Of a stretch of DNA of 64,000 nt, positions 1-9,701 are shown one piece after another. The DNA comes from an uncultured Bacteroidota bacterium. GTDB lineage: Bacteria > Bacteroidota > Bacteroidia > Bacteroidales > VadinHA17. Made by a program: the position numbers and the translations under genes. How positions within the stretch are numbered: position 1 is the stretch's first letter; every line of letters starts with the position of its first letter. The notes beneath the pieces were generated by a model. The model did not search any database. It had not been told where the DNA came from and was given only the letters and a program-made list of their open reading frames with translations. The stretch lies in NCBI GenBank assembly GCA_903844815.1, contig CAIMVD010000002.1, positions 1 through 64,000 of the forward strand. The letters run 5' to 3'.

Positions 1-2
1 CG

Positions 3-1472
3 GTTATAAATGGCTTCTCCGCTACAACCGGAATACCAATTATAAATGGATTCTCCATTACCAACGGAATACCTGTTTTAAATGGATTCTCCATTACCAA
101 CGGAATACCAATTACAAATGGATCCTCACTTACCAGCGGAATTCCGATAATAAACGGGTTGCTGAAAATTAATAGCAGTACTATAAATGAAACCAGCAAC
201 AGCGGTTCAATATTCATCTACGACTCACTCGATTTTGCTCAGAAAAATAATATCAGTTTCAAGCCAATCGCTGCTATTACGGGCACCAATACAGGAACTC
301 ACTGGATAATCCCCGGATCATTTCTTTCAGAGAATTTCAATGTCACCTATGGCCCCGGCATACTTACAATAGAACAAGCGCCTTTGTCCATTTCGATTGA
401 TAATTCTACAAAAATTTACGGATCGAAGGACCCTGAATTAACCTATAAGACAACTGAAGGGCATCTCTTTGGCGCTGATTCAATCACAGGAAACCCCGTA
501 AGAGTATCCGGGGAAAAGGCAGGTTCATACAGAATTATGAAAGGAACTATTTCAGCAGGACCTGACTACACGACCAGCATTGATAGAGGAACCCTTTCCA
601 TAAGAAAAGCAAATTTGACTGTTGCCGCCTCAACCCAGGCTATTCTGGCGGGCGATAACATTCCTGCAATAACCTTTACTTTTGCCGGCTGGCAATTTTC
701 AGATACTCCTGAAAAAGTATTTGGAACAGATGGGCCTTCATACACTGTTTCACCTGTATATACTCATGACGCCGGTACTTATATAATCAAGCCATCGGAC
801 TCGCCGGCTAACTACTTTATTACAGCTGTTCCCGGGTACCTTTATGTAAATCCGGCAGGAAGCAAGGCAAAAAGCATTGACCCGGCCTTATCCTGCGTGG
901 AAAAACTGGTAATCCCTGTTTCAGGTTATTCTTACATTGCCCACTTCGTCTACTATAACACAAACTATACCGACTTGTACATTCCGGCCGGGAACAATAA
1001 TTATGTTTCCGGAAAAGGGAAGTTCAGCCCCGTCAATCAGCCAAGCCTGTTCACACATGCCGGTGGTACATTTGATATTCTTTTCGACGGCACCTCAATA
1101 ACGTGGAATATAACTTCGATAAAATACGGCAAGACCGTTACTGAGAAAGCATCTGCAAGTTCCGCATCAACTATATGTAAAACTTCAGCAAAAGATGCGG
1201 TAATCTCCGATGAAACAGAAACGGAAACAGACCTGAACCCAGTAGCCTACCCTAACCCTGCTACCGATAAGGTCACAATTCATTATGAAGAGATAACAGA
1301 ACATTCATCGATAACTATAACCGATATGAAAGGAAGCTCATATCCTGCATCAATACTTACCATTTCGGATGATCGGCTGGAACTTGATACCAGAAATCTC
1401 CCGTCGGGATTATACATAATAGGTATCTTTGAGGGTACAAAACATAAACAATTCACGATAGTTATAAAATAA
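3..1472 (+). CDS. T9SS-secreted MBG-domain protein, 3' part only (paralogue of the gene at 1954)
   Basis: The reading frame is open from the left edge, so the true start lies outside the window; 489 residues are visible. A TTG near 159 is not a credible start because the frame upstream of it encodes the same repeat type. The visible part begins with an alternating hexapeptide array (NGFSIT and NGIPIx units). It continues with two MBG-like beta modules (each with a KIYGSKDPE-like or related motif), a beta domain containing YIAHFVYYN and FDGTSITW, and ends in a T9SS type A sorting domain (AYPNPATDKV at the start, KQFTIVIK at the end). It aligns over its whole visible length with the C-terminal quarter of the 1801-residue protein that follows, so the two are tandem paralogues. 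Whether the missing N-terminus also carries a subtilisin domain cannot be seen. Likely cell-surface or secreted; function unknown. Confidence 0.9.
   Translation, partial: VINGFSATTGIPIINGFSITNGIPVLNGFSITNGIPITNGSSLTSGIPIINGLLKINSSTINETSNSGSIFIYDSLDFAQKNNISFKPIAAITGTNTGTHWIIPGSFLSENFNVTYGPGILTIEQAPLSISIDNSTKIYGSKDPELTYKTTEGHLFGADSITGNPVRVSGEKAGSYRIMKGTISAGPDYTTSIDRGTLSIRKANLTVAASTQAILAGDNIPAITFTFAGWQFSDTPEKVFGTDGPSYTVSPVYTHDAGTYIIKPSDSPANYFITAVPGYLYVNPAGSKAKSIDPALSCVEKLVIPVSGYSYIAHFVYYNTNYTDLYIPAGNNNYVSGKGKFSPVNQPSLFTHAGGTFDILFDGTSITWNITSIKYGKTVTEKASASSASTICKTSAKDAVISDETETETDLNPVAYPNPATDKVTIHYEEITEHSSITITDMKGSSYPASILTISDDRLELDTRNLPSGLYIIGIFEGTKHKQFTIVIK
9..152 (+). repeat. Four 36-bp in-frame tandem repeats
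   Basis: Units at 9-44, 45-80, 81-116 and 117-152 each encode two hexapeptides, NGFSxT followed by NGIPxx. Units 2 and 3 differ at only a few bases; units 1 and 4 are more diverged. The array may continue to the left of the window. Confidence 0.85.
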
Positions 1473-1571
1473 TGGATGAATCCTAACTGAACTTACTCTG
1501 CGCTTTCTTTCTACGCCTTAATACAGAGGGTATTTGACCGGATTATAAAAAAATCAGCACCGGCTTGCCGG

Positions 1572-1757
1572 GAATATTTAGTTAAAACAAAGAGCGATTC
1601 AATGGCAGATCAGAAAATAAAATTTGATAAAGCGATGAACGAATGGATGGGAAAAAACAGGCAGACAGATGACATTTCTGTTATCGGATTCAGGACCAAT
1701 TACTGGCTAAAATATTTGATTCTGAACCACTCTCAATATTGTATCATTTCATCCTAA
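1572..1757 (+). pseudogene. Remnant of a SpoIIE/PP2C-type phosphatase C-terminus
   Basis: A frame through this stretch reads EYLVKTKSDSMADQK and then EWMGKNRQTDDISVIGFR (to about 1694), followed by unrelated residues and a stop at 1755-1757. This matches the last 40 or so residues of SpoIIE-type phosphatases, including the intact phosphatase encoded at 7521, which ends with SESMAEQK and WKGDNDQLDDIVVAGIK. The paired Asp (DD) is the metal-binding pair of the PP2C fold. Nothing of the N-terminal TPR or catalytic core is present. It sits directly downstream of the first giant protein, exactly where the intact phosphatase sits after the second one. Inference: leftover of a deleted gene after tandem duplication. 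Confidence 0.7.
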
Positions 1758-1953: not shown

Positions 1954-4900
1954 ATGAAATCATTAATTTTGAAACTCGTTAACGGGATAGGTGGAGCAAT
2001 TTACCAGAAGGGAATACTCTTATCAGTCCTGTTTGTAAATCTCACAATTGCGGTTGCTTTCGGGCAGACCGGTAAAGAAGTTGAGATAACTCTGGAAGGT
2101 ATTGAATCGCTTGGCAACGGCAAATATGCCGCTCACTTTAGCTATAATAACCCAAATACTACTGATATAGCTATTTCGGATACAAGTAGTTCTATTTCCG
2201 TCAGTGACCAGCTGACGAAAAAAATCAAAGCAAAGAAAAGCAAGTCGCTTACCAAATTCAAAGCAGGGAAACAGGCCTTTGCCTTTGATAAAGAGTTTTC
2301 GGGCGATGAAGAAGTTTCCTGGACAATTGTTTTGCCAAACGGCGTAACAAAAAAAGTTTCTGCAAGCAAAGACTCAAAAAAGTGTACAATACTCCCCTCC
2401 TATACTCCACCTTCAAACGGCAAGCATGCGATCTCAATACTTGGTCCTGAGCTTGCGTCACTTTTTGAAAGCTTTTCAGCCACCGGCGCCTTAGGCTCGA
2501 AGTCTGTTTTCATTATCCGCGACTCAAAGGTTCTGATTGAGATAAAATCAACAACCGGCAACTTTGACAAATTACTTGACAAACTAATTACCAAAACAGG
2601 TTTTACTTCAGAATCTTCTTTGCCGGGTAACAATCTGATTACCGGCTGGATCCCCATAATCAATCTTATGAGCATCCAGGATTATGCAAAATACGTCGAA
2701 TATGTCAGACCTGTATTCCCATCAATCATCAACAATTCCGGCCGTGCACTTAACCTCGGAGATTACTCGTTGCACTCTGATGTTGCCAGGAAAGGATACG
2801 GAATAACAGGAAAAGGTGTCAAGGTCGGTGTACTTTCCGACAGTTACGATTCTAAAGGATTATCTGGCAACGATGTTATCAACGGAGATCTTCCCGGGGC
2901 AGGGAACATTGACGGGAACCTTCAGAATGTTGAAATCGTTAAGGAGTTTCCCTATACATCTTCCTCTCTGATTGATGAGGGTCGCGGAATGCTTCAGATA
3001 GTTCATGACATAGCACCAGGGGCTAATCTCGCCTTCAGGACCGGTTTTGTAAGCCCTGTCGATATGGCCGCTGGAATCATTGAACTGGCCGACAATGGGT
3101 GTGATATTATAATCGACGACATAACTCATATAACAGAGCCTTTTTTCAGCGACGGTATAGTCTCACAGGCTGTCAATACTGTTGCAACCAAAGGTGTATC
3201 CTATTTTTCTGCTGCAGGAAACTATGGAAAAAAATCATATTCAGCAGCTTTTATTCCTTCGAAAATTACCTTGCCTGCAGGCATTACAGGTACGGCCCAT
3301 GATTTCGGAAGCGGTGATATCTTCCAGAACGTCACTTTAAAAGATGGAAATTATTTAATCGTAATGCAGTGGGTAGATGCCGTAAATGCGAAAAACGATT
3401 TCGATATCTATCTTTCAAGTGAAGATGGCACAAGCTACCTTGGATACAACAGAAATAATATTGGCTCTCAGCCAATTGAGATATTGCCTTTTACCGTGAA
3501 AAACGGAGGCACAAATACAAACATTATGATTACCAGGACATCCGGGAGTGATAATCCGGTTGTAAAATATATTGTTTTCAAGGGCGATATAGTGATAAAC
3601 GAGTATTTTTCAGGCAATTCCACAATTGTTGGCCAGGCTAACTCTCTTGGCGCAATAACTGTAGGTGCAGTGAAATATGACAATACTCCCTATTACGGGG
3701 TCCCCGTTCCGACGATAGCCTCTTTTTCTTCTATCGGAGGAACAATGGTTAATGGCACAGTCAGACAGAAACCCGACATTACTGCTCCCAACGGAGTAAA
3801 TACAACTGTTAAGCTAAGTCCGAACGATCTCGATGGCGATGGTAATTTCGATTTTTTCGGCACTTCAGCATCTTCATCTCATGCAGCTGCAGTTGCCGCA
3901 CTTCTGAAGGAAGCCAAAACGACATTTTCAAATGAAACATTAAATCCGGAACAGACTCGAAAACTGCTTCTGTCTACTGCATTAGATATGGATGAGACCG
4001 GATTTGACATGAACACCGGTTACGGTTTCATTCAGGCCGATGCTGCCATAGCAACTTTTGCTGCTCCAAAACCTGAGATTGGCGAACTGATTTTATCACT
4101 TGGATCAATCCCCGGGAAATCAACTATCAGGATAACTGTCAAGGGAAACAACTTCATCGCAGAGACCAGCATAACGATGAATAAGGAAGTTCTTAAAACA
4201 ACCTTTGTAAGCGCCACTGAAGTTATTGCTACAATACCTGTATTTTCAGGCGACCCTGCAATTCAGGCCTACAATCCGCCGATATCCTCAAGTAAGCTTG
4301 ACGGTGGCTACTCCAATTCATTTTATTTCTCCAGACCATACAAGGACACACTAACATTTGTTGCTGAAAATGCTGCGAAAAAATACGGGGAGCCTGTACC
4401 ATCATTCACATATACAATCACAATGGCAGGCCTTCCTTTTAACACTAAAGAGCTTACGCCTGAAGAACTTGCAAGGATTTCTGATGTTCACTTCATAACT
4501 ACAGGTTCTCCAACCAGCACAGGTGGCGGTTATATAATCCGACCATATTTTGAACCGGCACTGGGATCAATTACCGATAAGAAAAATCCTTTATATGCTG
4601 TCGACAGCACTTTGCTCGGAAAATTCAAGGTTTTGTTCAATGATGGAACACTTACTGTGGAGAGAATACCTCTTAAGATTACGCCAAATAATCTCACAAA
4701 AACCTATGGACAAACCCTTACCTCCTCAGAGATCTCATACAATTATGAGCTCGACATAACAGGATTGAAAATTACCGAAGAGGAGAAAAAAATAATGCTT
4801 GAGGCAGCTAAAGCAGAACACATGGCGTCGCTGGCCGACGGAGTTCTTCTCATCGACGGAACTACCATATTCTCAGGCATTCCGATAATTAATGGAATAC

Positions 4901-7359
4901 CAATCATCAATGGAATACCGATCATTAATGGTACGGCCATTGTGAACGGCCAGGAGGTTAAAGTTGTAAATGGCCAGACTTTCATTAACGGGATACCAAT
5001 CATTAATGGAATTCCGATTATAAACGGCATTCCGATTATAAACGGGTACCCGATAGTCAATCCTGCCGACATTATCTCAGCACAAGCCCTCTTCAACGGC
5101 ATAATCATCGAAATTGTCAAGGGAATTGTTGTGAAGGTAGGTGATCTGACTTTGCCAAATGGTATTCCAATTATTAACGGCATACCAATAATAAATGGAA
5201 CCGCTTTAATCGACAATATTCAGGTTAAGGTAGAAAACGGCGTTACATTTGTCAATAATATAGCAGTAACATCCCTTAATACAATTGTTAACGGGATCCC
5301 GATCATTAACGGAATACCAATCATCAACTCGATGTATGTTGTTGATGGTATCGGAATGTTCAACGGTCTTGAAATACAAATCACGAACGGCATTCCGATA
5401 ATCAACGGAATTCCAATCATTAATGGTATTCCGATCATAAACGGGATTCCGATAATTAACGGTATTCCAATAATTAATGGTATTCCGATAATAAACGGGA
5501 TTCCGATTATTAATGGCATTCCGATAATTAACGGAGTATCCCTGACAAACTCTTTAAATGAAAATGAATTTGTCAGCCTTGAAAACATGAGCATGATGGC
5601 AAGCGAAACTGCCCTAGCGAATTCATTGTCGACGGTGAACGGAATTCCGATAATAAATGGCATTCCAATAATAAACGGAATCTCCGGAAACATACCCGAT
5701 GAATCACTTATAACGGCAGTAAATCATCAGCAGCCTGACGGAACCGTCACCGATGATCAGGGGAATATTCTGGCCAATGGCATTCCGATTATTAACGGAG
5801 TTGCACTCATCAGTGGAATTCCAATTATAAACGGTATTCCGATAATTAACGGTATTCCTATTATCAACGGGATTCCTATTATCAACGGGATTCCTATCAT
5901 AAACGGAAAAACTAAAACCAGCGGAATTCCAATAGTAATTGGAGCTACTTCCACCGATGAAATTCCAATAATCAATGGGTCTACTCTTATCAGCGAAACA
6001 ACAGGTACTTCTAATGGAACATTAATAAGCGAGAGTGCTGTGGTGAACGGAATACCGATTATTAACAGTAATACTATTAATGCGAGCAGCAATGCCGGTT
6101 TAATATTCATTTACGATGCGCTTGATTTTGCCGAGCAACAGAATCTCAGTTTTAAACCAATAGCCGCAGTTACCGGAAGCAATGCAGGAACCCATTGGAT
6201 AATACCGGGATCATATCTTTCAGAAAACTATAATGTATCCTACGGTTTGGGCATACTTACTGTAGAGAAAGCGCCTCTGACTGTCACAGTTGCCAGTACT
6301 GCAAAAATCTACGGATCTAAAGACCCTGAGTTTACCTACAAGGTAACATCAGGTCAGCTTTTCGGCGCCGATGCAATTTCAGGAAATCCTGTCAGGGCAG
6401 CTGGAGAAAAAGCAGGATCATACAAGATTGAAGCAGGCACTATTACAGCCGGTCTCGATTACAAAACAACGGTTGTAACAGGAACCCTTACAATACAGAA
6501 AGCGCCTCTGACGGTAACGGCATCAACCCAGGCTATAATAGCAGGAGCAGCCCTTCCAAAGTTTACTTTTGCTTATTCACGCTTCCAGTTTACCGATACT
6601 CCTGAAAGCGTCTTTGGCACAGCAGGTCCTTCATATACAGTTTCACCTTCATATAAAGGCCTTGCAGGTACTTATACGATCACTCCTTATGGATCTCCTG
6701 CAAACTATATAATAACATCAATTCCCGGTTATCTTTATGTTAACCCGACAGGTTCTAAGTCAAGATGTATTGTTCCGGTATTTTCGTGCATTGAAAAACT
6801 TGTAGTACCAATATCAGGTTTTTACTATATTGCCCATTTCAATTATTCCAATAGCAATGCTACTGATGTCTATATTCCGGTAGGAAAGAGTAATATTGTA
6901 ACTGGAAAAGGCAAGTTCAGTCCGATGACTCAGCCAAGTCTTTTCAAAACAACTGGCGGATCAATGGATGTCCTTTTCGACGGAACTTCGATATCATGGA
7001 GCATAACAAGCCTTAGTGTCGGTAAAATAGTTACTATGACAGCTACAGCAAGCTCCACTTCATCGATATGCAAGACCACTATTAAAGCTATGGCATCACC
7101 TGAATCTGAAGAGACCGATGTGGTTCCTGTAGCTTACCCGAACCCTGCTACCGACAAGGTTACTATCGATGCTGAAGAGATTACTGAAAATTCAGTGATT
7201 TCAATAACCGATATGAAAGGAAGCACATATCCTGTATCAATACTTTCTATTTCTGATGATCATCTGGAGCTTGATACCAGAAATCTCTCTTCGGGAGTAT
7301 ATATTATTGGTATCCTTGATGGTACAAAATATAAGCAGTTTACCATAGTAGTAAAATAG
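1954..7359 (+). CDS. Giant T9SS-secreted subtilisin-like protein with MBG domains and a GIPIIN hexapeptide array
   Basis: 1801 residues. A long-n-region signal peptide covers about 1-38. A beta domain follows (about 40-144), then a prodomain-like region, then an S8 peptidase domain with the triad visible as Asp296 (SDSYD), His351 (QIVHD) and Ser638 (GTSASSSH), and oxyanion Asn in SAAGN. A beta insertion (about 430-550) lies between His and Ser. Next come an IPT/TIG-like domain (about 705-795), an MBG domain (about 797-904), a second MBG domain interrupted by the hexapeptide array (975-1371), further MBG modules (to about 1595), a second copy of the N-terminal beta domain (about 1597-1700) and a T9SS sorting domain (about 1728-1801). 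The order and triad indicate a secreted, surface-attached protease; the substrate and the role of the array are unknown. Start fixed by the promoter and purine-rich site upstream. Confidence 0.92.
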   Translation: MKSLILKLVNGIGGAIYQKGILLSVLFVNLTIAVAFGQTGKEVEITLEGIESLGNGKYAAHFSYNNPNTTDIAISDTSSSISVSDQLTKKIKAKKSKSLTKFKAGKQAFAFDKEFSGDEEVSWTIVLPNGVTKKVSASKDSKKCTILPSYTPPSNGKHAISILGPELASLFESFSATGALGSKSVFIIRDSKVLIEIKSTTGNFDKLLDKLITKTGFTSESSLPGNNLITGWIPIINLMSIQDYAKYVEYVRPVFPSIINNSGRALNLGDYSLHSDVARKGYGITGKGVKVGVLSDSYDSKGLSGNDVINGDLPGAGNIDGNLQNVEIVKEFPYTSSSLIDEGRGMLQIVHDIAPGANLAFRTGFVSPVDMAAGIIELADNGCDIIIDDITHITEPFFSDGIVSQAVNTVATKGVSYFSAAGNYGKKSYSAAFIPSKITLPAGITGTAHDFGSGDIFQNVTLKDGNYLIVMQWVDAVNAKNDFDIYLSSEDGTSYLGYNRNNIGSQPIEILPFTVKNGGTNTNIMITRTSGSDNPVVKYIVFKGDIVINEYFSGNSTIVGQANSLGAITVGAVKYDNTPYYGVPVPTIASFSSIGGTMVNGTVRQKPDITAPNGVNTTVKLSPNDLDGDGNFDFFGTSASSSHAAAVAALLKEAKTTFSNETLNPEQTRKLLLSTALDMDETGFDMNTGYGFIQADAAIATFAAPKPEIGELILSLGSIPGKSTIRITVKGNNFIAETSITMNKEVLKTTFVSATEVIATIPVFSGDPAIQAYNPPISSSKLDGGYSNSFYFSRPYKDTLTFVAENAAKKYGEPVPSFTYTITMAGLPFNTKELTPEELARISDVHFITTGSPTSTGGGYIIRPYFEPALGSITDKKNPLYAVDSTLLGKFKVLFNDGTLTVERIPLKITPNNLTKTYGQTLTSSEISYNYELDITGLKITEEEKKIMLEAAKAEHMASLADGVLLIDGTTIFSGIPIINGIPIINGIPIINGTAIVNGQEVKVVNGQTFINGIPIINGIPIINGIPIINGYPIVNPADIISAQALFNGIIIEIVKGIVVKVGDLTLPNGIPIINGIPIINGTALIDNIQVKVENGVTFVNNIAVTSLNTIVNGIPIINGIPIINSMYVVDGIGMFNGLEIQITNGIPIINGIPIINGIPIINGIPIINGIPIINGIPIINGIPIINGIPIINGVSLTNSLNENEFVSLENMSMMASETALANSLSTVNGIPIINGIPIINGISGNIPDESLITAVNHQQPDGTVTDDQGNILANGIPIINGVALISGIPIINGIPIINGIPIINGIPIINGIPIINGKTKTSGIPIVIGATSTDEIPIINGSTLISETTGTSNGTLISESAVVNGIPIINSNTINASSNAGLIFIYDALDFAEQQNLSFKPIAAVTGSNAGTHWIIPGSYLSENYNVSYGLGILTVEKAPLTVTVASTAKIYGSKDPEFTYKVTSGQLFGADAISGNPVRAAGEKAGSYKIEAGTITAGLDYKTTVVTGTLTIQKAPLTVTASTQAIIAGAALPKFTFAYSRFQFTDTPESVFGTAGPSYTVSPSYKGLAGTYTITPYGSPANYIITSIPGYLYVNPTGSKSRCIVPVFSCIEKLVVPISGFYYIAHFNYSNSNATDVYIPVGKSNIVTGKGKFSPMTQPSLFKTTGGSMDVLFDGTSISWSITSLSVGKIVTMTATASSTSSICKTTIKAMASPESEETDVVPVAYPNPATDKVTIDAEEITENSVISITDMKGSTYPVSILSISDDHLELDTRNLSSGVYIIGILDGTKYKQFTIVVK
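4876..6066 (+). repeat. GIPIIN hexapeptide-coding array (18-bp period)
   Basis: About 27 exact GIPIIN units plus variants (GYPIVN, GIPIVI, DEIPIIN) occur in clusters of two to eight separated by short non-repeat linkers. The longest run is eight tandem units at 5389-5532. In that run no two 18-bp units are identical: all four Gly codons, several Ile codons, CCA/CCG and AAT/AAC are mixed, while the protein sequence is invariant. The array lies inside an MBG domain. Confidence 0.95.
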
Positions 7360-7520: not shown

Positions 7521-9701
7521 ATGAAGCAATTCATCACAATACTATTAACTTTTACTTTTTCTGTACTGTATTTACCCTGTTATTCACAGCAAAAAACTCT
7601 CAGGGAGATGAGAGAAAATGTGAATAACATGAAGGATGATACGGTTAAAGTTAAGATATTGCTCGATATTTGCGACAGTATGTACAAGCCTAAACCTTTG
7701 GAAACCATTGAGTATGCCATAAAAGCACTCGGGATTTCCGAAAAACTTCAATACACAACAGGGGGAGCTTATGCCTATAAATATATCGGCATGGGTTATT
7801 TTCAACTGTCCGATTATGTAAAGGCAATAGAATATTTTCAGTTCTCTCTTGATGTCTTTGAATCCATCAAGTATAAAAAAGGCATTTCAAATATGCTGAA
7901 CAGCCTTGGAGTTACATACAGCATGCAAAAAATGCATTCCAAGGCTCTTGAGCTATACCTTAAATCGTTAAGGATTGCCGAGGAAATAAATGATCCTCTC
8001 CGTTATGTGACAGCGCTTATAAACGTAGGATACATTTACTCCGAAATGGCAATAGTCGATAAAGCAAAAGAGTACTACGACAATGCACTCATTATTGCCG
8101 AGGAAAAAAACTTTATGCAGGCAATAGGTACATTGGCCGTTAACCTGGGAGATCTTCTGTATGATAAGGGTTCATACAAAGAAGCATTGAATAATTATGA
8201 AAAATCGCTTAAGGTATTCCGCAAGACAAATACAGGTGACATATCTTATTCCCTGTTAAGTATCGGAAAAATATATGCAAGAATTGGTGAATATGATAAG
8301 GCGATCACCTACCAGGAAGAAGCATACAAAATAGCGAGCGAAAGACATGAGAAAACACGGATGGCCGAGGCATTGATAGGACTTGCCAATACTTATCTTA
8401 AAAAAGGTGAAATCCGGAATGCCCTTGATTATTTCAAAAAAGCAGAATTTTATTCAATTGAGATAGGCGCCATTAAAGAACTCAGAGATGCCTATGATGG
8501 CATGGCAAAAGCCTATGCAAAAAGAACCGATTTCTATAATGCTTATCAATACCAGAGAAAGGAATCCATTATCAAAGACAGCCTGTTCACCAAGTCAACC
8601 ATTTCACAGGTAAATCAGTTCAAGGTCCAGATCGAAATTGACTCCATGCTAAAGGTGAATGAAATCCTGAAAAAAGATTCTAAATTGCAGGAATCGAAAA
8701 ACAAAACCCAGATTCTGGTAATTATCTTCCTGATTACGGGATTCTCACTGATTTCGCTCTTTACTGTACTTCTTATCAGGGCTAATAACAATAAGAAGAA
8801 AACAAATGAAGAACTCAACAGTACAAATGAGGAGCTTAATAATACACTGGAAATTATTAATTCACAGAAGAAACTCATCGAAACGGCCCACGAAGAGATA
8901 ACTGCCAGCATAATCTATGCGAAATATATCCAGTCTTCCGTATTGCCCAAACCCAGTCAGATTGAGGCCTGCATGGGCGAACATTTTATCTTCTATCGGC
9001 CTAAGGAAATCGTGAGCGGTGATTTCTACTGGTGCTCCAGCATCGACAACCTCTCAGTTTTTGCAGCCGTTGACTGCACCGGTCACGGAGTCCCCGGCGC
9101 TTTCATGAGCATGCTTGGCACTGCCCTTCTGAATGAAATTGTAACTAAGGAACATATTACAAATCCGGTTTCTATTCTTCACCATCTCAGGAACGATATT
9201 ATTGAGTCGCTGCAACAGCAGGGAGAGACGGGTGAGATCAAGGACGGAATGGATCTTTCTCTCTGCGTAATTGACTTCAAGGCAATGAAAGCCCAGTTCG
9301 CCGGGGCTAATAATTCCATGTATGTTGTAAGGAAAAAAGATGGAAATAGCATTCCTGATACCAAGATGGTTTCATCAGATGAATTTTCCCTGTATGAACT
9401 CAAGGGCGACAGAATGCCGGTGTCGATACATGTTTCAATGGAGAACTTCACCTTGCTTGAATTTGATATAGAACAGGATGATGTGCTATACCTGTTCTCC
9501 GATGGTTATGCTGATCAGTTTGGCGGGCCCCATACGAAAAAAATGCAGTTCAAAAATTTCAAGAAACTCTTGCTGAAACATTGTTCCGAATCGATGGCTG
9601 AACAGAAAATAAGCGTTGAAAGGGAGTTTTACAAGTGGAAAGGAGACAATGATCAGCTCGACGACATTGTAGTAGCCGGAATAAAGATCAGCCAAAGATA
9701 A
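7521..9701 (+). CDS. TPR-containing membrane SpoIIE/PP2C-type serine phosphatase
   Basis: 726 residues. A signal peptide (about 1-22) is followed by a tetratricopeptide array (about 50-350, with repeated A..Y..AL and KA..Y..KAL helices), one transmembrane segment (about 398-420), a coiled coil rich in NEELNST-like repeats (about 425-465), and a SpoIIE-type PP2C domain. Metal-site motifs are GDFYW (500-504), DCTGHGVPGAF (from 518), FSDGYADQFGG (Asp661) and DD at 714-715. The topology places the TPR part in the periplasm and the phosphatase in the cytoplasm, so it likely senses an envelope signal and dephosphorylates a serine or threonine protein, such as an anti-sigma-antagonist partner. No such partner gene is adjacent. 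It follows the giant T9SS protein by 160 bp, and a remnant of a related gene follows the first copy, which suggests the pair is a unit. Confidence 0.9.
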   Translation: MKQFITILLTFTFSVLYLPCYSQQKTLREMRENVNNMKDDTVKVKILLDICDSMYKPKPLETIEYAIKALGISEKLQYTTGGAYAYKYIGMGYFQLSDYVKAIEYFQFSLDVFESIKYKKGISNMLNSLGVTYSMQKMHSKALELYLKSLRIAEEINDPLRYVTALINVGYIYSEMAIVDKAKEYYDNALIIAEEKNFMQAIGTLAVNLGDLLYDKGSYKEALNNYEKSLKVFRKTNTGDISYSLLSIGKIYARIGEYDKAITYQEEAYKIASERHEKTRMAEALIGLANTYLKKGEIRNALDYFKKAEFYSIEIGAIKELRDAYDGMAKAYAKRTDFYNAYQYQRKESIIKDSLFTKSTISQVNQFKVQIEIDSMLKVNEILKKDSKLQESKNKTQILVIIFLITGFSLISLFTVLLIRANNNKKKTNEELNSTNEELNNTLEIINSQKKLIETAHEEITASIIYAKYIQSSVLPKPSQIEACMGEHFIFYRPKEIVSGDFYWCSSIDNLSVFAAVDCTGHGVPGAFMSMLGTALLNEIVTKEHITNPVSILHHLRNDIIESLQQQGETGEIKDGMDLSLCVIDFKAMKAQFAGANNSMYVVRKKDGNSIPDTKMVSSDEFSLYELKGDRMPVSIHVSMENFTLLEFDIEQDDVLYLFSDGYADQFGGPHTKKMQFKNFKKLLLKHCSESMAEQKISVEREFYKWKGDNDQLDDIVVAGIKISQR

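Follow-up and report, generated by a model that had tools for sequence, protein, structure and literature searches.

How does a protein come to hold some 27 copies of one hexapeptide when no two of the DNA units that encode them are alike? This question is raised by gene A of an uncultured Bacteroidota bacterium (Bacteroidales, VadinHA17), which lies in the 64,000-nucleotide stretch analysed here, referred to as the window and forming the start of contig C2 in a 6.37-Mb assembly. A sequence-only reading of this stretch had proposed strong selection on the peptide, combined with avoidance or a long absence of homogenisation, and had suggested that the repeats could build a solenoid; it lacked the S8/MBG/T9SS context of the array, the shift in unit type from lineage to lineage and the TPR signalling neighbour that are described below. 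The account that we favour, if only moderately, is that gene A encodes an exported S8 array protein with a β-solenoid-like surface, that its units are held by peptide selection with rare resetting, and that it would work together with its TPR receptor-like neighbour.

Peptide uniformity and DNA diversity in the window

The array extends from residue 975 (base 4876) to residue 1371 (base 6066) of the gene A product (Table 1). Its exact GIPIIN units, which do number 27 as had been read from the sequence, are grouped as runs of 3, 3, 2, 2, 8, 2, 1, 5 and 1. A degenerate peptide pattern spanning four units matched ten times in the window, and none of 100 dinucleotide shuffles contained a match; a peptide array of this kind is not remotely expected by chance. 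At the DNA level all 27 of the 27 GIPIIN 18-mers are distinct, including the eight of the longest run, whose differences had been noticed earlier. When synonymous codons were redealt per unit position, 25.89 ± 0.96 distinct units were expected, and 30% of 2000 such codon shuffles were likewise without any identical pair of units. Because random synonymous choice gives such diversity, all-distinct units need no avoidance of DNA identity, and the special feature of the array is its uniform peptide, not unusual DNA diversity. The silent sites of the window array resemble random draws, in agreement with the proposal that homogenisation has long been absent here.

Table 1. Features of the gene A locus, with positions in the window.
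Feature	Positions	Strand	Basis or remark
Gene C, further array gene, 3' part	1..1472	+	5' part at end of contig C194
Short open frame with similarity to the TPR-SpoIIE C terminus	1491..1757	+	blastp 43% over 42 aa vs residues 681-722, E 5.6e-9 (two-sequence comparison)
Gene A: S8 protease-like protein, 1801 aa, with MBG domains, hexapeptide array and T9SS type A sorting domain	1954..7359	+	ORF; Pfam PF00082, PF18676, PF18962; NCBIfam TIGR04183
Peptidase_S8 match, aa 351-691; GTSA (Ser) and AAGN (Asn) motifs, without HGTH string	3004..4026	+	Pfam and motif search
Probable first half of MBG domain split by array: TYG motif, then predicted helix	4642..4815	+	Alignments; profile searches weak
Array: 27 exact GIPIIN units and degenerate 6-/8-residue units ending NG	4876..6066	+	
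Tandem run of eight units, eight different 18-mers	5389..5532	+	
Tandem run of five units	5815..5904	+	
Probable second half of split MBG domain, MBG_2 profile positions 38-72	6157..6261	+	E 3.5e-4, 21.5 bits, under curated cut-off 25
Next MBG_2 domain, complete, aa 1442-1513	6277..6492	+	Pfam
Por secretion system C-terminal sorting domain, aa 1728-1794	7135..7335	+	Pfam
TPR-SpoIIE gene, encoding TPR repeats, a single hydrophobic segment (aa 395) and a SpoIIE-type phosphatase output	7521..9701	+	Pfam; hydropathy; conserved neighbour

The protein that carries the array

Comparison of the gene A product with Pfam gave 55.6 bits against the S8 peptidase profile PF00082 (cut-off 21.8) and, over the whole protein in four stretches, 101.3 bits against MBG_2 (PF18676; curated cut-off 25 bits). 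The T9SS type A tail was matched by both PF18962 (45.4 bits, cut-off 27) and TIGR04183 (31.1, cut-off 23), and was found in all eight relatives scanned, in seven of them above cut-off. MBG_2 was also matched by each of 27 array regions at E ≤ 0.1 in Pfam. The piece that precedes the array in the window had no Pfam match, MBG_2 included, and the same piece in two of ten relatives gave weak matches to MBG_2 positions 1-29 and 1-36 (E 0.028 and 0.1). We conclude with moderate confidence, from these profile matches and alignments, that the array probably splits one MBG domain of the gene A product.

Whether the S8 domain is capable of catalysis is uncertain. The HGTH string is absent from all 34 family frames, five of which end before that region, DEGR is present in the 29 that reach it, and GTSA is found in 32 of the 34. 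In the window (about 2836-3860) and in 29 uncut relatives and paralogues, the S8 domain features S[DN]S[YF] and DEGR, and the Ser and Asn motifs are kept; we take the two former motifs to stand at the places where D-S-G and H-G-T-H are usual. Sequence alignment of the S8 region with solved structures spans the Ser end only. The motifs suggest that the mechanism of the domain may be altered or lost. Two relatives differ at the other end of the protein, where L090 has a malectin domain before the T9SS tail and L073 a laminin-G-like match at that place; carbohydrate-binding parts may have been swapped in there.

The array itself is likely to be missed by automatic annotation, because the Pfam and NCBIfam copies searched have no model for it, and no solved relative was found by sequence; the earlier remark that it resembles no described domain holds to this extent. 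Whole-protein scores exceed the cut-off of Pam3_gp18 (Pfam) and, in L063, that of LED_rpt (Pfam); both candidates were rejected, as these scores are sums of many weak pieces, and no row tabulated has a stretch that is significant alone. NCBIfam gave no match in the window array region, and its matches to the 27 array regions, which comprise six unrelated-looking families with a best E of 4.7e-7 (a PTS subunit model, 10 members), were taken as repeat artefacts. PADLOC returned a subtilase, IetS, three TPR-type models and PDC-S39, all of them partial. A literature search by title and abstract start found nothing on the array or its unit strings, on Bacteroidetes MBG domains or on the gene pair, and the novelty of the array is limited to the literature and libraries searched here.

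Relatives and changes of unit type

A scan of genome contigs with an alignment as query returned 33 loci, of which 31 (L063-L093) carry the array frame; L094 and L095, which are without an S8-array frame, were excluded from all counts. The S8 part of the gene A product was matched in 30 of the 31 array loci, L068 ending before that part. Hosts include Neolewinella, Lewinella, Saprospiraceae, Maribacter, Formosa, Algibacter, Xanthomarina, Robiginitalea and several Bacteroidetes MAGs. Within the window's genus 5 of 62 genomes gave a match, the window's own being counted. In a set of 60 genomes, again with the window's own, the S8 region alone was matched (E ≤ 1e-20) in four, and these are identical to the four with arrays. 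Matches of low identity elsewhere in the phylum, such as G279 and G263 at 16%, were treated as unrelated. The S8 protein of L054 (G181) has a divergent array in which the units read A-[RK]-[AQ]-L-[IV]-N and not G-x-P-x-x-N.

Across the relatives the generic unit is G-Φ-[PSA]-Φ-[IV]-N, and the dominant form depends on the lineage: GIPIIN, GIPVIN, GIPLVN (often with GIALVN), GIPIVN, GISLVN and GLSLVN all occur in this role, as do GVSLVN, GTALVN, GIALVN, GLALVN and GLSVIN. Mean hexamer identity is 0.51 within proteins vs 0.10 between them (34 proteins). Four fetched loci, L044-L047, are the same genes as L068, L071, L069 and L077, respectively, and were left out of this comparison and of the pair and codon-usage analyses, together with L048 (GLSVIN) and L054.

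The majority residue at position 3 (P, S or A), under which mixed arrays were also entered, requires six changes on the tree of 29 S8 regions, where the minimum is two and the shuffled mean 12.3, and well-supported branches force at least two position-3 changes for each label. Unit type therefore differs between lineages and changes on the tree. The dominant type covers 25 of 28 units in L069 and again in L071, and 14 of the 15 units of Maribacter arcticus (L087) are GLSLVN, the relatives around it having mixed arrays. The simplest account would be rare resetting of whole arrays at the DNA level, fresh in L081 (see below), with silent decay under peptide selection thereafter; added selection for like units is possible.

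Peptide selection and silent change between relatives

Amino acid identity between related proteins is 0.69-0.99 in the hexamers vs 0.45-0.84 in the rest of the protein, and is higher in the hexamers in 18 of 18 pairs, although hexamer sites were picked where one member of the pair matched the motif, a choice that may raise their identity. The values are, for example, 0.99 vs 0.70 in L071/L069 and 0.98 vs 0.84 in L064/L065. L071 and L069 (also fetched as L045/L046) have all 25 of 25 aligned GISLVN units in common, in the same layout of 12 runs. The hexamer peptide is thus held by purifying selection, as the sequence-only reading had supposed.

Silent codons retain a memory of unit position in five of the six pairs with identity ≥ 0.80 elsewhere in the protein. 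In L064/L065, 0.61 of silent codons are common to aligned units vs 0.37 for non-aligned ones, and the corresponding values are 0.60 vs 0.48 in L077/L078, 0.55 vs 0.46 in L079/L080, 0.50 vs 0.35 in L082/L089 and 0.52 vs 0.35 in L092/L093; L077/L079, the sixth of these closest pairs, has no such memory (0.40 aligned vs 0.42 non-aligned). Memory is slight or absent in the other pairs, and in L083/L082 the relation is the reverse, over five units. The memory in the closest pairs indicates vertical descent of the units, and close relatives keep their units position by position while the silent codons drift to saturation. There is a hint that silent change is faster inside the hexamers: in 15 of 18 pairs, which are not independent of one another, silent identity is lower there than at sites elsewhere with the same residue (MH z -2.69 to +0.64).

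Compared with the codon usage of their own genes, eight of 34 arrays have units that are more alike overall (z ≥ 2), none is unusually diverse (z ≤ -2), and in seven of the 34 neighbouring units are more alike than predicted (z ≥ 2). The strongest case is the GIALVN array of L081 (Saprospiraceae), whose 13 units comprise only seven distinct 18-mers and whose neighbouring units share 0.83 of silent codons vs 0.37 expected (z 7.5); this is recent DNA homogenisation. Seven arrays were also shuffled per column, with L047 and L048 included: these two have two identical unit pairs each vs 0.25 and 0.28 in the shuffles (P 0.016 and 0.026), neighbouring units of G008 are more alike than in the shuffles (P 0.01), and the other arrays of the seven do not differ from expectation. 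Homogenisation therefore exists, but is rare or old. Homogenised unit DNA in relatives had been named beforehand as evidence against the sequence-only reading, and such DNA is present in L081.

Two other explanations of the uniform peptide and its diverse DNA bear on the same data. Silent diversity could itself be selected, with codons kept different against recombination and unit loss, as would fit the 27 of 27 distinct units and the low silent identity of hexamers in 15 of the 18 non-independent pairs. The number of distinct units is, however, the random expectation, identical pairs in L047 and L048 exceed those of the shuffles, and the codon-usage comparison gives no array below expectation and eight above; we regard selected diversity as most improbable, and the avoidance of homogenisation suggested earlier finds no support in any of the 34 arrays. 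Alternatively, the array could be low-complexity filler without a defined fold, uniform only through occasional DNA duplication, of which L081 provides an instance and with which the low model confidence reported below would agree. We regard filler as very unlikely: in all 18 pairs the hexamers surpass the remainder of the protein in conservation, and run layouts are fixed between related species.

A candidate fold for the array

AF2 modelling of the window region with 27 sequences gave a mean pLDDT of 51.7, with ten-residue block means of 22-86 in the array. Residues 201-300 of the model, which contain interrupted units, reach block means of 52-86, and the eight- and five-unit runs lie at 22-46. 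Part of the array is modelled as EEEE--EEEE, that is, as four-residue strands with gaps at NG. The compact array of Maribacter arcticus (L087), modelled with 16 sequences, has a mean of 48.7 and lies mostly at 21-49 in the array. Naming a fold from either model was rejected, as confidence in the array is too low. A Foldseek search of the PDB with the window model listed 114 matches at E ≤ 10 and none at E ≤ 0.001, and a PDB sequence search with the array listed three at E ≤ 10, the best of which (E 0.015) was taken as chance. The solenoid suggested by the sequence-only reading stays plausible, with the low AF2 confidence and the lack of a Foldseek match at E ≤ 0.001 counting against it.

The interruptions of the array are informative. 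Of 889 spacings from one N/D-G turn to the next in 33 proteins, 793 are even, 597 of them being the six-residue unit itself; the other distances up to 40 comprise 195 even and 94 odd ones. In 27 distinct 8-residue units, positions -3 and -5 relative to NG are mostly aliphatic (0.85 and 0.67) and positions -2 and -4 mostly polar (0.74 and 0.85). The 75 distinct degenerate six-residue units are aliphatic at -3 in 0.88, at -4 in 0.11 and at -2 in 0.67, and polar at -5 in 0.43, a weaker pattern than in the 8-residue units.

An antiparallel β-meander, in which four-residue strands alternate with two-residue Asn-Gly hairpins and which perhaps stacks or polymerises into fibres, agrees with the four-residue strands and two-residue gaps of the AF2 model, and with a hexamer that is apolar on both faces, the degenerate six-residue units being aliphatic at both -2 and -3. 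NG is, moreover, the classical type I' hairpin turn. Even strands joined by two-residue turns would alternate the residue sets, whereas polar and apolar positions in the 8-residue units have a constant parity counted from NG; a solenoid therefore fits better than a meander of two-residue hairpins, and we consider the meander unlikely, if still a serious candidate. A left-handed β-helix like that of hexapeptide transferases or antifreeze proteins, for which the hexapeptide pattern is [LIV]-x-x-x-[STAV]-x, would account for the six-residue period and for the aliphatic residue that precedes N, two positions after a small one. Against it, the 27 array regions matched 11 Pfam families at E ≤ 0.1, and Hexapep is not one of these; moreover, the 8-residue units are polar on the 3/5 face and apolar on the 2/4 face, the reverse of what is expected. 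In a test for three-unit coils on 19 mixed arrays, units three apart were less alike than in shuffles (z -2.6), which counts against a simple coil of three units for the solenoid too, and this negative lag-3 identity adds to our strong doubt about a left-handed helix. The fold that we propose from the residue pattern is a β-strand solenoid with NG turns.

Gene cluster and TPR neighbour

Gene A probably stands in tandem with two further array genes. The last 141 bases of contig C194 (the end of L043) are identical to the first 141 bases of the window; because of this repetition, the assembly break lies inside the array of gene C. The array of gene C has 21 copies of GIPIIN in the C194 piece, and that of gene B 16 copies of GIPVIN. 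If the overlap is true adjacency, the order is B, TPR-SpoIIE, C, short TPR-SpoIIE-end frame, A, TPR-SpoIIE, where the short frame at 1491-1757 is by its similarity a probable decayed remnant of gene C's TPR-SpoIIE partner.

A relative of the TPR-SpoIIE protein is encoded within 25 of the 31 array loci, and was not found in six, three of which are contigs of < 6 kb. It lies downstream on the same strand in 14 loci (13 of these without an intervening open frame > 100 aa), upstream on the opposite strand in three, and in the other eight upstream on the same strand, separated by a single open frame. Three of the intervening frames were scanned, giving two HD-domain proteins and one without a match; in the Flavobacteriaceae loci L084 and L087 (about 1971-2815), the TPR-cyclase gene and the array gene are separated by a gene for an HD-domain protein. 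The window's genome encodes 16 TPR-SpoIIE relatives in 6.37 Mb, two of them in the gene A cluster, a density that predicts about 0.03 per 11-kb stretch and serves as a rough control only, as the loci come from other genomes and E-value scales differ. The output domain varies: 11 TPR proteins scanned comprise three with SpoIIE, six with a guanylate/adenylate cyclase and two with a histidine kinase. Simple hydropathy places a hydrophobic segment in the middle of 14 of the 25 TPR neighbours and of the window's own, three others being cut short, which suggests that the neighbour is likely to be a membrane receptor in many loci. An exported protein encoded beside a receptor-like protein with changeable output is the strongest functional clue, and it is an association only.

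Proposed role and comparison with known systems

In the account that we favour, the array is the repeat region of an S8 protease-like protein that would be exported by means of its T9SS tail, and is probably inserted in one MBG domain. Each G-Φ-[PSA]-Φ-[IV]-N unit would probably form one short β-strand closed by an Asn-Gly turn, and the units together an elongated, β-solenoid-like surface. Its usual history would be rare resetting at the DNA level and then long silent decay. The surface may serve as a scaffold in a protease/receptor module, as a binding or spacer surface that is the partner of the adjoining TPR receptor-like protein; information on the exported protein would then be relayed by the output domain of that neighbour, be it a SpoIIE phosphatase, a cyclase or a histidine kinase. 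A more far-reaching proposal is that arrays are surfaces for like-with-like recognition or polymerisation, in which each lineage and paralogue retains a single unit type because units must match, and the type switches as a whole, and that the array protein is ligand or reporter of the adjacent TPR receptor in a Bacteroidota signalling module of secreted protein and receptor that is absent from the literature searched; this we consider distinctly unlikely.

Uniformity of protein and uniformity of DNA are fully uncoupled in this array, and its relatives are found at different stages, L081 being fresh and the window saturated, which makes the family a test bed for the ways in which uniformity is maintained in repeat proteins. 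That array genes are often paired with genes for TPR receptor-like proteins of differing output points, in addition, to an uncharacterised module of exported protein and receptor.

Parts of the array protein have counterparts in known systems. The YGX-type MBG domain (PF18676, MBG_2) is present and its seeming halves flank the array, although the MBG_2 profile does not include the array. With the S8 subtilases exported by T9SS the protein shares the S8 profile match, GTSA, AAGN and the T9SS type A domain, but it is without HGTH and adds MBG domains and the array. The LpxA-type left-handed β-helix likewise repeats every six residues and has an aliphatic as well as a small position; in contrast to it, the array has a conserved N-G and no Hexapep match, and its 8-residue units face the opposite way when judged by the general LpxA-type facing. 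The array resembles, in general, other tandem repeat proteins whose peptide is conserved and whose codons have diverged: such proteins descend vertically under purifying selection and are homogenised on occasion. The array differs from these in that the dominant type changes by lineage for most of its units, as in the 25 of 28 units of L069 and L071.
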